A stretch of DNA of 64,000 nt from Niastella vici (GTDB taxonomy: Bacteria > Bacteroidota > Bacteroidia > Chitinophagales > Chitinophagaceae): NCBI RefSeq assembly GCF_002077945.1, contig NZ_LVYD01000002.1, forward strand, positions 454,156-518,155. The letters are read 5' to 3'. Shown in pieces: positions 39,013 through 43,530 of this stretch (positions are counted from its first letter, which is position 1; each line of letters begins with the position of its first letter). Under the pieces are notes generated by a model, which had not been told where the DNA came from, ran no database searches, and saw nothing but the letters and a program-made list of their open reading frames with translations. Both the position numbers and the translations under genes were made by a program.

Positions 39013-39849
39013 ATGACTATATTTGTTTTTACACTAATTCTTTTCATCGCATCTGCATTTGCAGGATTAATTGGATCCCTTACCGGACTGGGTGGAGGTG
39101 TGGTTCTGATACCTTTGCTGACCCTTGTGTTTAAAATAAATATTCATTATGCCATTGGCACTTCATTGATCAGTGTAATAGCCACCTCTTCAGGCGCTGC
39201 AGCAGCTTATGTAAAGGAAGGGATTACCAATATTCGCCTCGGCATGTTCCTCGAATTGGCCACTACCTCAGGTGCAATAATAGGGGCAATGACAGCCACT
39301 TTTGTTTCCACCAGTTTTATTGCTGTTACTTTTGGTGTTATTCTTCTCGTGTCAGCCATTACCTCCTTCATGAGTATCGATGAAAAAATAGATTCCGGTG
39401 CAAAGGGAAAATTTGCCAGTTTTTTAAAACTAAATAATAGTTTTCCAACAGGGGACGGCATGCGGGACTATACAGTTAAAAATGTTGCAGGTGGTTTTTT
39501 GATGATGAATATTGCGGGAATTGTGAGTGGTTTACTTGGAATCGGGTCGGGTGCTCTAAAAGTGATTGCGATGGATAGGGTCATGAGAATCCCCTTTAAG
39601 GTATCCACCACTACCAGTAATTTTATGATAGGTGTAACCGCTGCGGCCAGCGCAGGCGTATATCTTAAACGTGGATATATCGATCCGGGCCTTTCTATGC
39701 CGGTGGTATTAGGCGTTTTATTGGGAGCACTGATTGGGTCAAGAATATTATTCCGTGCCGAAACCCGAATACTCAAAGTGCTCTTCGCAATAGTGATATG
39801 TATTCTTGCCGCTGAAATGATCTATAACGGAATAAAAGGCACATTATAA
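39013..39849 (+). CDS. TauE/SafE-family sulfite/organosulfur exporter (first)
   Basis: 278 residues, about eight transmembrane helices in two repeats. The repeat motifs are LIGSLTGLGGGVVLIPLL (about 19-36) and VSGLLGIGSGALKVIAM (about 175-192). TauE/SafE proteins move sulfite, sulfoacetate and related anions. It starts the sulfur/redox cluster and is followed nine bases later by the DUF1634 gene, a pairing commonly seen in this family. Confidence 0.87.
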   Translation: MTIFVFTLILFIASAFAGLIGSLTGLGGGVVLIPLLTLVFKINIHYAIGTSLISVIATSSGAAAAYVKEGITNIRLGMFLELATTSGAIIGAMTATFVSTSFIAVTFGVILLVSAITSFMSIDEKIDSGAKGKFASFLKLNNSFPTGDGMRDYTVKNVAGGFLMMNIAGIVSGLLGIGSGALKVIAMDRVMRIPFKVSTTTSNFMIGVTAAASAGVYLKRGYIDPGLSMPVVLGVLLGALIGSRILFRAETRILKVLFAIVICILAAEMIYNGIKGTL

Positions 39850-39858
39850 AGATAAAAC

Positions 39859-40230
39859 ATGGAAAAGAAAATGATAGACGACAAACGTATTGAAATAATT
39901 ATGGGCAACCTGTTGAGGTTTGGGGTATTTTTGTCTGCATTGGTAGTATGTACCGGATCGTTCATCTACCTCTTTCAGCACGGAAGTGCAACACCCCAAT
40001 ATCGTACCTTTGAGGGTGAACCCAAAAGACTAACGGAATTACACTCCATTCTCACATCCGCCCTCAACGGCAGGGGAAGGTCAATTATTCAATTCGGGTT
40101 GCTGCTGCTGATCAGTACTCCCATTGTCCGGATCATCTTCTCCATCATTGGTTTTATCATGGAACGCGATCTACTGTATGCTTTAATTACCCTCGTTGTT
40201 CTTGCAACGATTATGGTGGGCTTGTTTTAA
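39859..40230 (+). CDS. DUF1634-family small membrane protein
   Basis: 123 residues with three transmembrane helices: ILMGNLLRFGVFLSALVV..., IIQFGLLLLISTPIVRIIFS and YALITLVVLATIMVGLF. The pattern matches DUF1634, proteins usually encoded next to TauE/SafE transporters and thought to be accessory subunits. It starts 9 bases after the first TauE gene. Confidence 0.78.
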   Translation: MEKKMIDDKRIEIIMGNLLRFGVFLSALVVCTGSFIYLFQHGSATPQYRTFEGEPKRLTELHSILTSALNGRGRSIIQFGLLLLISTPIVRIIFSIIGFIMERDLLYALITLVVLATIMVGLF

Positions 40231-40291: not shown

Positions 40292-40939
40292 ATGACAAAA
40301 CAGGAAATTAGCAGGCATTTCCCCAGCCTCGAAAAGGAACTGGTTGATGAAATGGTGGAAGTAGCAGATATTAAAACCTTTAAAGAGGGTGAAGTAGTAT
40401 TGCGAACAGGACAAAATATCCGGTCTGCTATTCTGGTAATAGATGGACTGGTTAAGGTATACCGGGAAGACGAAGAAAGTTCAGAATTCTTTATGTACTA
40501 CCTGGGCCCGGGTAAGGCATGCGCCATATCCCTCGTGTGTGCTTTGGGAAAAGGAACAAGCGGGCTCATGGCAAAGGCAACTACAGATGCAACTGTGATG
40601 TCTATACCGTTACCGTATGTTGATGACTGGATGGGTAAGTATAAAAGCTGGGCGCAGTTCGCTGTAAGTACCTATCGCGAAAGGTTTGAAGAACTTTTAC
40701 AAACTATTGATCACGTTGCTTTCAGAAACATGGACGAGCGGCTTTTGTTTTATCTCAAAAGGCACCAGGAAAAATTTAAAACCAATATCGTTTCTATCTC
40801 ATATACCGAAATTGCGCAGGACCTCAATTCATCCCGGGAAGTTATCTCAAGACTTATGAAAAAATTAGCAGAAAGAGGAATGATTAAACAACGCCGCTCA
40901 GAAGTTGAAATCATTGATTTGGGGAAAGCGTTGACGTGA
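40292..40939 (+). CDS. Crp/Fnr-family transcriptional regulator of the sulfur/redox cluster
   Basis: 215 residues from the ATG at 40292. N-terminal cyclic-nucleotide-binding-like beta roll (about 15-125, EGEVVLRTGQNIRSAILVID, FFMYYLGPGKACAISLVCA) with a C-terminal winged HTH (about 150-213; SYTEIAQDLNSSREVISRLM). The recognition helix SSREVISRLMKKL resembles Fnr/Crp helices that read GTGA half-sites. No Fnr-like four-Cys iron-sulfur ligand set is seen; Cys occurs in CAISLVC only. Four GTGA-N6-TCAC sites lie within 2.9 kb downstream, the first overlapping its own stop codon. A possible -7 box TATCTTTG (40280-40287) is only four bases before the ATG, so the transcript may be nearly leaderless. 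Confidence 0.88.
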   Translation: MTKQEISRHFPSLEKELVDEMVEVADIKTFKEGEVVLRTGQNIRSAILVIDGLVKVYREDEESSEFFMYYLGPGKACAISLVCALGKGTSGLMAKATTDATVMSIPLPYVDDWMGKYKSWAQFAVSTYRERFEELLQTIDHVAFRNMDERLLFYLKRHQEKFKTNIVSISYTEIAQDLNSSREVISRLMKKLAERGMIKQRRSEVEIIDLGKALT

Positions 40940-40950
40940 CCAAAATCACG
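40935..40950 (+). promoter_or_regulatory. Crp/Fnr-type operator, site 1 (second TauE gene)
   Basis: CGTGA-CCAAAA-TCACG, centred at 40942.5 and overlapping the stop of the regulator gene. The -7-like box CAGCTTTG begins at 40972, 29.5 bases from the centre, placing the site near -42 of the predicted start for the TauE gene at 40997. Seen in sequence; regulator assignment is inferred. Confidence 0.72.
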
Positions 40951-40996
40951 TTTTACTATGCTGACATGACCCAGCTTTGCATGCAATATAAATTGC

Positions 40997-41794
40997 ATGG
41001 AAATTTTCGGATATATAGCTGCTCTCCTGATTGGCATTTCGCTTGGGTTGATCGGCGGTGGCGGATCTATACTTACTGTTCCCGTTATGGTGTACCTGTT
41101 TGGATTACAGCCCCTGGTTGCTATGTCTTATTCGCTTTTCATTGTTGGTTCCACCAGTATTGTCGGTGCTGTCAGCAATTACAGAAAAGGACTGGTCAAT
41201 GTAAAAGCAGCAATCTTTTTTGGCGCTTCATCTATAGCCACCGTCTTCCTCGTTAGGAAATATATTGTACCTGCCTTACCCAACACTATTTTAAAAATCG
41301 GGGGATTTCCTATTACGTCATCATTTATTTTGATGCTCCTCTTTGCTTTACTCATGCTGTTCGCTTCTGTAAGCATGATCCGTAAGCCCAAACAGCATTT
41401 TAAAGAAAAGGAAAATAAATCATCTATCCACTTTTTCGGGTTTATTGGTTATGGTATCATGATAGGGCTCATTACCGGATTACTTGGCGCAGGCGGTGGC
41501 TTCCTACTCATTCCAACACTCGTTTTTTTGATTGGGCTTTCTATGAAAAAAGCCATTGGCACATCTCTGTTTATCATCGCTTTAAATTCTTTAATAGGCT
41601 TCCTTGGGGACCTTGGACATATTTCGATCAACTGGGTCTTTTTACTGAAGGTAACCGGTATTGCTATTGCCGGTATATTGATAGGCGGCGCATTTAGTAA
41701 AAAAATAAAAAGTGAAAATCTAAAGAAAGGATTTGGATGGTTCATCCTTATTATGGGGGTTATCATAATTGTTAAAGAAATTTTCTCCAGCTGA
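40997..41794 (+). CDS. TauE/SafE-family sulfite/organosulfur exporter (second)
   Basis: 265 residues with two TauE repeats: ALLIGISLGLIGGGGSILTV near the N-terminus and MIGLITGLLGAGGGFLLIPT (about 155-175), eight predicted helices. It is diverged from the first copy and more like the DUF81 proteins found beside rhodanese genes. A Crp/Fnr-type site ends 46 bases before its ATG, so it should have its own regulated promoter. Confidence 0.87.
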   Translation: MEIFGYIAALLIGISLGLIGGGGSILTVPVMVYLFGLQPLVAMSYSLFIVGSTSIVGAVSNYRKGLVNVKAAIFFGASSIATVFLVRKYIVPALPNTILKIGGFPITSSFILMLLFALLMLFASVSMIRKPKQHFKEKENKSSIHFFGFIGYGIMIGLITGLLGAGGGFLLIPTLVFLIGLSMKKAIGTSLFIIALNSLIGFLGDLGHISINWVFLLKVTGIAIAGILIGGAFSKKIKSENLKKGFGWFILIMGVIIIVKEIFSS

Positions 41795-41803
41795 TCTTTT
41801 ATG

Positions 41804-41819
41804 TGTGACCCAGATCACG
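41804..41819 (+). promoter_or_regulatory. Crp/Fnr-type operator, site 2 (rhodanese genes)
   Basis: TGTGA-CCCAGA-TCACG, centred at 41811.5. A -7-like box GAGATTTG starts at 41841, again 29.5 bases away. It would drive the rhodanese remnant, the intact rhodanese gene at 41987 and the small membrane protein after it. Confidence 0.7.
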
Positions 41820-41833
41820 ATGTTTATAGTTGA

Positions 41834-41944
41834 TTAATCAGAGATTTGCATCAGTATCTCCATACCTTAAACGAACACCTGGCTTCAGTGGATAAAAATG
41901 AAACTTATTATGTGTATTGCGCAAGTGGCTATCGCTACCAGTAA
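41834..41944 (+). pseudogene. C-terminal remnant of a rhodanese-domain protein
   Basis: The frame reads LNEHLASVDKNETYYVYCAS then GYRYQ and stops. This is the segment before and around the rhodanese active-site Cys (pattern YVYCASGYR), as in fused metallo-beta-lactamase/rhodanese proteins where the text would continue with SMIAASILK. Everything before and after is missing. It lies between operator site 2 and the intact rhodanese gene, so a larger sulfur-metabolism gene was probably deleted here. Confidence 0.6.
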
Positions 41945-41986
41945 CAGATAAGCAGATTTCTTACAATAATTAAAATAATTCAACTT

Positions 41987-42301
41987 ATGATATCCTTAAT
42001 AAAACAATTATTCGGTTCTAAAACAGACCTGGAAATGATATTGAAAAATGGAGCTGTCATCCTGGATGTGCGAACGAAAAATGAATATGATGCCGGCCAT
42101 ATCCAGCATTCCAGGCATGTGCCACTTGATATTATCAGACAACAACTAAATCAGCTGAAAAAATTAAACAAACCAATAATTACCGTTTGCAGAAGCGGCA
42201 GCCGTAGTGCTATTGCAAAAAGCCTGTTGCAAAATGCCGGCATAGAGGCATATAACGGCGGTTCATGGATCACATTCAAAAATAAATACGGAATAAAATG
42301 A
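41987..42301 (+). CDS. Single-domain rhodanese (sulfurtransferase)
   Basis: 104 residues, one rhodanese domain: AVILDVRTKNEYDAGHIQHS and the active-site loop VCRSGSRS with catalytic Cys near residue 68. It would carry sulfane sulfur as a persulfide in the cytoplasm; no signal peptide. Its stop overlaps the start of the next gene (ATGA), so they are translationally coupled. Confidence 0.88.
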   Translation: MISLIKQLFGSKTDLEMILKNGAVILDVRTKNEYDAGHIQHSRHVPLDIIRQQLNQLKKLNKPIITVCRSGSRSAIAKSLLQNAGIEAYNGGSWITFKNKYGIK

Positions 42302-42528
42302 TAGCATACTTTAAGAGGTGGACGTTTTTCCGCTGGGTTAGGCTAATTATGGGAATTGCAATTTTTATCCGGGGTGTATCAACCGGTGAATACCTCCTTT
42401 ACCTGGCCGGTGCTTTTGTAACATTTATGGCTTTTGCCAATGCAGGATGCGGCATTGAGGGATGCGCAACAAATGTCAGGCTGCCTAAAAGCAAAATATA
42501 TCATGATGGTAATGTTGATAAGAAATAA
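42298..42528 (+). CDS. Small membrane protein, DUF2892/YgaP-like
   Basis: 76 residues with two transmembrane helices (VRLIMGIAIFIRGVSTGEYL, YLLYLAGAFVTFMAFANAGC) followed by GCGIEGCATN with two Cys in a C-x4-C arrangement (plus a Cys in the helix end). Coupled to the rhodanese gene by a 4-base overlap. The pairing recalls YgaP, where a rhodanese is fused to a DUF2892 membrane part. Possibly anchors or channels persulfide sulfur; that is inference. Confidence 0.72.
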   Translation: MIAYFKRWTFFRWVRLIMGIAIFIRGVSTGEYLLYLAGAFVTFMAFANAGCGIEGCATNVRLPKSKIYHDGNVDKK

Positions 42529-42551
42529 ATTGTTTCTGGCAAATCAAAGAA

Positions 42552-42577
42552 AAACCCCGACGGCGCCGTCGGGGTTT
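42552..42577. terminator. Bidirectional terminator between the rhodanese operon and thioredoxin
   Basis: A perfect 26-base palindrome with 13-bp arms, AAACCCCGACGGC (42552-42564) and its complement (42565-42577), with A-rich sequence on the left and ttctttatt on the right. It separates two convergent genes. Confidence 0.85.
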
Positions 42578-42579
42578 CT

Positions 42580-42951
42580 TTATTGCTGCGGATCTTTTTG
42601 CAATAATCGTTCTTCAATTACCTGTTGAAATACTTTTTTCGATAACGCTCCCGGTTGCATTACAGGGATTCCTTCCACCGGGATAAAAAGAAATGTTGGA
42701 ATACTTTGGATACCGAATACAGCGGCAAGTTCCTGCTCCGTTTCAGTATTGACCTTGTAAATTAATAACTGCCCTTCAAATTGTTTGGACAGATCTTCCA
42801 ACACAGGAGCCACCATCTTACAGGGGCCACACCAATCGGCATAGAAATCGATCATAGCCGGAATCTTTCCCTTGTATTTCCAGTCCTTTTCTACTTCATA
42901 GTTGAAAACTTTATCTTTAAAATCCTGCGTTGTCATTTGTATTGTCGCCAT
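42580..42951 (-). CDS. Thioredoxin
   Basis: 123 residues with the thioredoxin active site FYADWCGPCKMVAP near residue 35-48, the cis-Pro loop SIPTFLFI and a C-terminal helix. Cytoplasmic (no signal peptide). It would keep rhodanese and other Cys-containing partners of the cluster reduced. It is divergent from the DUF302 gene, with two Crp/Fnr-type sites in the shared upstream region; site 3 serves this gene. Confidence 0.9.
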   Translation of the reverse strand: MATIQMTTQDFKDKVFNYEVEKDWKYKGKIPAMIDFYADWCGPCKMVAPVLEDLSKQFEGQLLIYKVNTETEQELAAVFGIQSIPTFLFIPVEGIPVMQPGALSKKVFQQVIEERLLQKDPQQ

Positions 42952-42968
42952 GTTTAAATTGTTTACTC

Positions 42969-43013
42969 CAAAGCTACTTTCTGCTGTTTCTCTGATTCGT
43001 GATATGAGTCACA
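42969..43013 (-). promoter_or_regulatory. Thioredoxin promoter with Crp/Fnr-type operator, site 3
   Basis: The operator CGTGA-TATGAG-TCACA (42998-43013) is centred at 43005.5. Read on the minus strand, a full consensus -7 box TAGCTTTG runs from 42976 to 42969, starting 29.5 bases from the centre. This puts the site near -42, the class II activator position. Confidence 0.75.
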
Positions 43014-43045
43014 CTAAAAGCTCAAACCAAATCAAGGTAGCCAGA

Positions 43046-43090
43046 AGTGATAAAAGTCACGACTGAAGCAACGGCATACATTTATGTTTG
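43046..43090 (+). promoter_or_regulatory. DUF302 gene promoter with Crp/Fnr-type operator, site 4
   Basis: The operator AGTGA-TAAAAG-TCACG (43046-43061), centred at 43053.5, precedes a full consensus -7 box TATGTTTG (43083-43090) whose first base is 29.5 bases from the centre. The ATG of the DUF302 gene is at 43144, leaving a leader of about 48 bases. Confidence 0.75.
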
Positions 43091-43143
43091 GTTTTTAATC
43101 ATTACATCTAATCGTCCGGAAACCGGGCTTTAAAATCATAATT

Positions 43144-43530
43144 ATGAATTACAACATTAGCAAAAAGCTACAAATAAGTTTTCAGGAAGCTATCAATAAG
43201 GTAACAGACGAATTAAAGAAAGAAGGGTTCGGGATCATTACCGAAATTGATCTAAAAGAAAAATTTAAAGAAAAAATAGGAGTTGATTTCAGGAGATATA
43301 CAATTCTGGGCGCCTGTAATCCGAAACTTGCCTATGAAGCTGTGCAACTGGAAGATAAAATCGGCGTGATGCTGCCATGCAACATCCTGGTACAGGAACA
43401 TGAAAACGGCGGGGTAGAAGTGTCAGCAATCAACCCAATGAACGCTATGGACGTTGTGAATAACGAGCGCCTATCATTACTTGCCAACGAAATCGGCCAA
43501 AAGCTACAAAAAGTAATAGCTAATATTTAA
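43144..43530 (+). CDS. DUF302-domain protein
   Basis: 128 residues with the DUF302 pattern: FQEAINKVTDELKKEGFGII, RRYTILGACNPKLAYEAVQ, VMLPCNILVQEHENGGVEVS. DUF302 proteins are small cytoplasmic proteins often found with sulfur/redox and membrane-exporter genes; Cys residues in GACNP and LPCN are conserved in the family and may bind a thiol or metal. Function is unknown. Predicted to be activated by the Crp/Fnr protein through site 4. Confidence 0.85.
   Translation: MNYNISKKLQISFQEAINKVTDELKKEGFGIITEIDLKEKFKEKIGVDFRRYTILGACNPKLAYEAVQLEDKIGVMLPCNILVQEHENGGVEVSAINPMNAMDVVNNERLSLLANEIGQKLQKVIANI

Follow-up and report, generated by a model that had tools for sequence, protein, structure and literature searches.

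What do four palindromes of the form GTGA-N6-TCAC, all equally far from a putative promoter element, do beside the gene for a Crp/Fnr-family regulator in Niastella vici? They lie in a 64,000-nucleotide stretch of contig NZ_LVYD01000002.1 (positions 454,156 to 518,155), the whole of which was analysed and is hereafter called the window. Our analysis revealed that the observed arrangement is real, and that it is best read as a set of Crp-type operators in class II position serving a sulfur regulon. The sequence evidence suggests, with a probability that we put at roughly 0.8, that the neighbouring regulator is a class II activator of this regulon and acts through the four sites, which are operators of the form GTGAY-N4-RTCAC.

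In the window, the palindrome GTGANNNNNNTCAC occurs only at 40936-40949, 41805-41818, 42999-43012 and 43047-43060, and at all four sites an nAnnTTTG box begins 29.5 bp from the palindrome centre. An earlier note on this DNA had reported the palindromes, the boxes and their 29.5-bp spacing, and all of these coordinates were confirmed, with the palindromes exclusive to these places; its gene calls (Crp/Fnr, TauE, rhodanese, thioredoxin and DUF302) were upheld by gene calling and family searches. The transcription starts (+1) in the following list are predicted from the box coordinates of another species (PMC9723704).

40292..40939, plus strand: Crp/Fnr-family regulator of 215 aa with cNMP_binding and HTH_Crp_2 domains, helix SREVISRL and C77-x5-C83
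40936..40949, plus strand: operator 1, GTGACCAAAATCAC, overlapping the stop codon of the regulator
40972..40979, plus strand: -7 box CAGCTTTG, predicted +1 at 40984
40997..41794, plus strand: TauE/SafE-family exporter (PF01925, 3.2e-40)
41805..41818, plus strand: operator 2, GTGACCCAGATCAC
41841..41848, plus strand: -7 box GAGATTTG, predicted +1 at 41853
41849..41941, plus strand: remnant of a persulfide dioxygenase (PDO)-rhodanese gene, about residues 400-430 of intact relatives
41987..42301, plus strand: single-domain rhodanese (PF00581, 5e-16)
42298..42528, plus strand: small membrane-like protein without a Pfam match
42580..42951, minus strand: thioredoxin with WCGPC motif (PF00085, 2.7e-23)
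42969..42976, minus strand (read 42976-42969): -7 box of the thioredoxin promoter, TAGCTTTG, predicted +1 at 42964
42999..43012, minus strand: operator 3, GTGACTCATATCAC in minus-strand reading
43047..43060, plus strand: operator 4, GTGATAAAAGTCAC
43083..43090, plus strand: -7 box TATGTTTG, predicted +1 at 43095
43144..43530, plus strand: DUF302 protein (PF03625, 8.2e-26)
39013..40230, plus strand: second TauE gene and a DUF1634 gene, upstream of the regulator (gene calls, Pfam)

Could four look-alike palindromes share a spacing by chance? In 100 dinucleotide shuffles of the window the palindrome appeared 0.56 times on average and at most 3 times, against the 4 observed, and with 60 possible TTTG offsets and either orientation allowed, the probability that all four sites would agree on one is roughly 1.6e-6. 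Across the whole 10.06-Mb genome the pattern GTGAN6TCAC-N26-TTTG occurs at 5 places (4 for the reversed-pattern control), and 4 of the 5 fall within this 2.1-kb stretch. When one mismatch was allowed in GTGAYN4RTCAC-N23-ANNTTTG, the genome held 9 places and the control also 9, an equality that speaks for chance. Outside the window cluster the genome-wide count alone is not above chance, and it was rejected as proof of a wide regulon; the evidence therefore rests on clustering and conservation. An alpha/beta hydrolase gene follows the fifth own-genome site with this spacing (L161, G000:C58:487738) at a distance of 14 bases.

Conservation was examined around regulator orthologues, defined by E below 1e-50 in a search that covered 147 genomes of the family; two genomes with weaker matches (G022, 3.4e-50; G099, 1.2e-48) and one with a 61% identical fragment (G095) were counted as lacking an orthologue. 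Close protein relatives carry the names Niastella, Cnuella and Flavisolibacter, in keeping with a bacterium of the Chitinophagaceae type. The first set comprised 62 regulator copies other than that of the window, with up to about 6 kb on each side and 746 kb in total; four regulator loci (L108, L116, L123 and L152) were widened because of known sites there. This set contained 88 distinct palindromes, compared to 2-13 for six control words of equal composition. TTTG followed after 26 bases (N26) in 50 of the 88, no other offset was found more than 4 times, and the control words gave 0-2 cases at N26; 34 of the 62 loci carried at least one N26 site. For the second set, named genomes were scanned with the orthologue alignment, and the best 80 of 560 matches were taken, of which 12 overlapping the first set were dropped, leaving 68 loci. 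Here 115 palindromes were present (control words 2-14, with 0-2 TTTG at N26), 70 of them with TTTG at N26 and 14 at the next-best offset, and at least one N26 site was found at 44 of the 68 loci. Because this set includes Aquirufa, Flavobacterium sp. H122 and a Lewinellaceae genome, the arrangement extends beyond the family. Flavisolibacter ginsengisoli and Niastella soli are among the named environmental relatives that have the orthologue.

Taken over both sets (130 loci), N26 accounts for 120 of 203 palindromes, followed by N25 (15), N41 (13) and N27 (9). With up to one mismatch in the ten defined positions and ANNTTTG kept exact, a site was detected at 50 of the 62 loci in the first set and 55 of the 68 in the second. 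A look for palindrome and spacing at orthologous promoters, as the earlier note had proposed, is thereby answered by 105 of 130 loci against 2 of 130 (one locus in each set) for the control word. Chance or palindrome noise was rejected by the shuffles, the exact genome-wide count and the offset probability, by both conservation sets, and by the Fisher test and the gene-level PDO control described below, and we give it practically no credence. The earlier statement that four sites with one spacing cannot easily be chance is thus borne out, by the 1.6e-6 in the window and by the same spacing in two separate genome sets.

The conserved sites define the operator more closely. At the inner positions, left free in the search, every one of the 120 N26 sites from the two sets has a pyrimidine at -44 and a purine at -39, and the operator is therefore GTGAY-N4-RTCAC; GTGA-N6-TCAC, as first described, stands as the core of this fuller motif. 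The same inner bases occur in 4 of 4 window sites and in 116 of 117 distinct sites, some of which were chosen by their site (these 117 are the N26 sites in the window and the examined loci, with identical 44-mers counted once, and 111 have A at -11). Within the box, 113 of the 120 N26 sites have A at -11 and 114 have C or T at -4, giving nAnnTTTGY. Nothing is strongly conserved between -33 and -13 (124 sites), and the sequence is A-rich from +1.

At class II promoters, E. coli CRP is centred at -41.5. In Flavobacterium psychrophilum the box TAnnTTTG occupies -12 to -5 (PMC9723704), and by these coordinates, which come from another species, the palindrome centre falls at -41.5. The operator thus stands at the class II position in fixed phase to the core promoter, which agrees with the earlier placement near -42. 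The start codons agree with this assignment as well, since only 1 of 115 (script-assigned starts) lies closer than 4 bases after TTTG, that is, nearer than the predicted +1. In four TauE genes (L107, L109, L122 and L129) the start codon is located exactly 4 bases after TTTG, at the predicted +1 itself, and their mRNAs are predicted to be leaderless.

Alternatively, the same regulator at the same sites might repress in the manner of BigR, occupying the -33 region until reactive sulfur dislodges it. The right half-site spans -38 to -35, and a repressor bound there would block polymerase too. SqrR and CstR are likewise repressors. BigR itself, a sulfur sensor, represses its operon (PMC7315123). 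Yet repression would not require a constant phase relative to the -7 box, and one spacing dominates here (120/203). Furthermore, the absence of a conserved element between -33 and -13, together with the loss of T at -12 from most sites (28 of 120 keep it), is what is expected of activator-dependent promoters and argues against repression, which we consider quite unlikely.

The window regulator belongs to the Crp/Fnr superfamily (PF13545 with 41.1 bits, cut-off 27; PF00027 with 36.6 bits, cut-off 27.5), in agreement with its fold match. Its recognition helix, S-R-E-V-x-S/T-R-L, is kept, with R182, E183 and R187 in 63 of 63 orthologues including that of the window; an R-E-x3-R helix together with GTGA half-sites predicts CRP-type recognition. 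A conserved cysteine pair is also present, C77 in 63 and C83 in 59 of the 63 orthologues, and in the alignment to E. coli CRP both fall inside the phosphate-binding cassette. The cAMP contacts of E. coli CRP are E72, R82, T127 and S128. In place of E72 (mature numbering), 62 of the 63 orthologues have L, I or V and one has M; R82 survives in 2 of 63, T127 aligns to L135 (L in 59 of 63) and S128 to L136. With these contacts lost, and with 40.2 bits from the NCBIfam CRP model compared to a cut-off of 266, a cAMP-responsive CRP orthologue was rejected. FNR holds its iron-sulfur cluster through N-terminal cysteines; it was rejected as well, because the protein read from 40292 contains no cysteines besides C77 and C83, neither of which is N-terminal. 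A longer reading from 40274 would add one cysteine. The predicted model of the regulator is good overall, with a pLDDT of 83 and a pTM of 0.60.

Is it this regulator, or another Crp/Fnr protein of the global, cAMP type, that uses the sites, with the neighbouring gene unrelated? The operator motif equals the E. coli CRP core, and the own-genome protein L052 also has an R-E-x3-R helix. The own genome has 18 HTH_Crp_2 matches, of which 17 were aligned (two of these without the cassette), and among them, besides the window protein, only a 58% identical paralogue has both the helix and the cysteines. Across the 147 genomes, the site with A at -11 was found in 45 of 58 genomes with an orthologue (108 sites, control 13) and in 22 of 89 without (28 sites, control 7), a difference with a Fisher p of 3.5e-10. 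The 28 sites against a control of 7 speak for a further user, while the concentration of sites in orthologue genomes and beside the regulator gene speaks against one. We regard use of the sites by another such protein as very unlikely.

A gene-level control is stronger than this genome-level co-occurrence. The family has two PDO-rhodanese subfamilies, which we separated by identity to one query and named PDO-A and PDO-B, the latter being more widespread. Each group was represented by 20 genes taken from longer, capped lists, and a site was sought up to 2.5 kb upstream on the same strand (one upstream region, L366, had only 706 bases). In orthologue genomes, 16 of 20 PDO-A genes had a site with up to one mismatch, 14 of them perfect, compared to 0 of 20 PDO-B genes. 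Ten of the PDO-A sites were within 33 bases of the start and six at 894-1085 bases; at the latter distance a TauE gene can intervene.

Genomes without the orthologue are not a clean negative and were rejected as such, since at up to one mismatch a site precedes 8 of 20 PDO-A genes there (1 perfect), and at up to two mismatches 15 of 20, three of these sites lying 576-2118 bases upstream. Among those 15, a GTAAY or RTTAC half-site is present in 10 and both in 3, at the same spacing (L351-L370). Six such genomes (G032, G034, G043, G055, G096 and G103) have another Crp/Fnr gene, 30-36% identical to the window regulator, within about 1 kb of PDO-A, and from this proximity it is likely that a sister regulator acts there. 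GTAAY alone was rejected as a mark of a replaced regulator because, in the first orthologue set, 10 of the 17 loci with a one-mismatch site have it too.

Which genes do the sites precede? To assign gene kinds, proteins were clustered by BLAST and between one and three members of each cluster were matched to Pfam; loci L161-L218, having been selected for their site, inform on gene kinds and not on site presence. Of the 136 A(-11) matches in the 147 genomes, 112 lie in the window or the examined loci. The first genes after the 117 distinct sites encode 28 rhodaneses or PDO-rhodaneses (18 of at least 466 aa), 23 TauE proteins, 11 outer-membrane efflux proteins, 8 thioredoxins, 6 Sulf_transp proteins, 4 YgaP-like membrane proteins, 3 OsmC proteins, the regulator itself in 3 cases and a sister Crp/Fnr protein in 1, the remainder being mixed. 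Two are Pyr_redox_2 flavoproteins that we call SQR-like, one of them with a sulfide dehydrogenase match below the cut-off. DUF302 was recognised as a first gene in the window only, Pfam having been applied to part of the first genes. Near the regulator (50 sites), 17 first genes were rhodanese/PDO, 16 TauE and 6 Sulf_transp; at sites remote from it in orthologue genomes (52 sites), 9 were rhodanese/PDO, 7 efflux, 6 TauE, 6 thioredoxin and 2 SQR-like. The eleven sites before efflux genes include L192, L197, L112 and L108, and at L192 the next gene appears membrane-fusion-like by look.

Sites thus stand before persulfide dioxygenase, TauE, sulfur-transport and SQR-like genes. The FisR and BigR operons described for Acinetobacter baumannii include PDO, SQR, TauE and YeeE/YedE (PMC7315123), and on this basis the regulon was assigned to reactive sulfur. 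The earlier note had described a local sulfur/redox regulon; sulfur holds, but the regulon extends further, given the remote sites and a paralogous module elsewhere in the genome. This second module (L104, G000:C1:380837-393451) contains the 58% paralogue, the palindrome, TauE, PDO-rhodanese and two sulfur-transport-like genes, the TauE and transport genes being named by look; the intact PDO-A of the genome, at C1:384254-385669, lies inside it. In the window, a rhodanese does follow site 2 as had been described, but the PDO-rhodanese remnant comes first (41849-41941; 26 residues with 46-65% identity to intact relatives) and explains the 138-base gap between the box and the rhodanese start codon. 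No operator was found before the second TauE and DUF1634 genes (39013-40230), even allowing two mismatches.

The signal is less certain than the regulon. We give about an even chance that persulfide itself is sensed. The cassette could also answer disulfide stress, a metal or nitric oxide, the sulfur genes being part of a wider redox response; the 11 efflux, 8 thioredoxin and 3 OsmC genes among the 117 first genes would suit this, while the commonest targets, rhodanese/PDO-rhodanese and TauE, with Sulf_transp, resemble the FisR and BigR operons (PMC7315123) and make it somewhat unlikely.

Several observations weigh against the activator reading as a whole. Thirteen of the 58 orthologue genomes are without a perfect site, 25 of the 130 orthologue loci have none even at one mismatch, and 83 of the 203 palindromes near the regulator lack TTTG at N26 in either direction. 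Only 28 of 120 boxes carry the canonical T at -12, and in module L104 the box CACCTTCA, conserved in a same-genus relative, has TTCA and not TTTG at the right spacing. PDO-A genes have sites in orthologue-less genomes (the 8 of 20 above), 18 of the 52 remote sites stand before genes of other kinds than those named, and the fifth own-genome site, before the alpha/beta hydrolase gene, may be a chance occurrence. On the protein side, 4 of 63 orthologues lack C83, the cysteine loop is the least confident part of the model (residues 80-84 under 50), and L052 shares the R-E-x3-R helix without having the cysteines. Finally, the spacing is less strict in the class, where 30 of 88 places have one extra base (N24), in a scan not tied to this regulator.

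That scan covered the phylum, and 80 of 296 genomes had 20-26 bases between the palindrome and ANNTTTG. In the window's class, the 88 such places comprised 47 with N23, 30 with N24 and 11 others, compared to 21 for the reversed-pattern control in the same genomes with all spacings summed. Strict uniqueness of 29.5 bp was therefore rejected at class level, and as N23 and N24 are both common, the rule allows a narrow class II range and not a single value. In a related family (f4), 10 of 11 places have N24, and five share the palindrome GTGACTTTTATCAC.

Based on these results, we propose that the protein of 40292-40939 and its 58% paralogue bind the sites. Located at -41.5, the regulator would overlap the -33 region and recruit sigma-A RNA polymerase at the -7 box. 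C77 and C83, placed where CRP holds cAMP, may react with persulfides or polysulfides and thereby switch the protein on. Of the predicted products, TauE would export sulfite or thiosulfate, rhodanese would move sulfane sulfur and thioredoxin would reduce persulfides. More generally, and at slightly less than even odds, Bacteroidota may have a reactive-sulfur sensor of their own, a Crp-fold activator whose cAMP pocket became a C-x5-C persulfide cassette. Together with sister Crp/Fnr proteins it would follow a single geometric rule, with the operator centred 29.5 bp (in some cases 30.5 bp) upstream of the -7 box, by which the -41.5 position of E. coli class II promoters is transferred to another promoter type and sigma factor. 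Under this rule the spacing would persist, while half-sites may relax to GTAAY/RTTAC, mainly where a sister regulator took over.

Compared with E. coli CRP at class II promoters, the fold, the R-E-x3-R helix, the GTGAY/RTCAC core and the inferred -41.5 position are the same, whereas the cAMP contacts are lost, two cassette cysteines are present, and the promoter is of the -7 TAnnTTTG type and not -10/-35. To our knowledge, the Crp fold has not been described as a persulfide sensor. HcpR is a nitrosative-stress regulator. In Porphyromonas gingivalis, also of the Bacteroidota, it has the Crp/Fnr fold and was the fourth-ranked structure match (PDB 9day, 16% identity). A Crp/Fnr protein of Eubacterium rectale, which belongs to another phylum, has cysteines aligned to C77 and C83. 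This uncharacterised protein is the best PDB sequence match (3dv8, 2.6e-13). The FisR and BigR systems of A. baumannii share the persulfide dioxygenase, SQR, TauE and YeeE/YedE content, but FisR activates with sigma-54 and BigR represses (PMC7315123), whereas here a Crp/Fnr protein would work with the main sigma factor. MalR and other Bacteroides Crp-like regulators (PMC8510549, PMC10434189) are Crp/Fnr proteins of Bacteroidota as well, and they concern carbohydrate or cytochrome genes, not sulfur.

In the open literature surveyed, from which subscription papers were largely absent and in which some keyword matching was weak, neither a Bacteroidota Crp/Fnr sulfur regulator nor an activator spacing rule for the -7 promoter was found; the available parts of PMC9723704, PMC7315123, PMC9603854, PMC8510549, PMC7366714 and PMC10434189 contain neither. 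The present work names a candidate sulfide/persulfide regulator for this phylum, for which none was found in the literature surveyed. In addition, a spacing rule for activators on the unusual Bacteroidota -7 promoters is testable and could help to predict regulons in unannotated genomes.

A GC-rich inverted repeat, CCCCGACGGCGCCGTCGGGG, was observed at 42555-42574, flanked by A and T runs and located between the converging genes for the small membrane-like protein (42298-42528) and thioredoxin; it is likely a two-way terminator.

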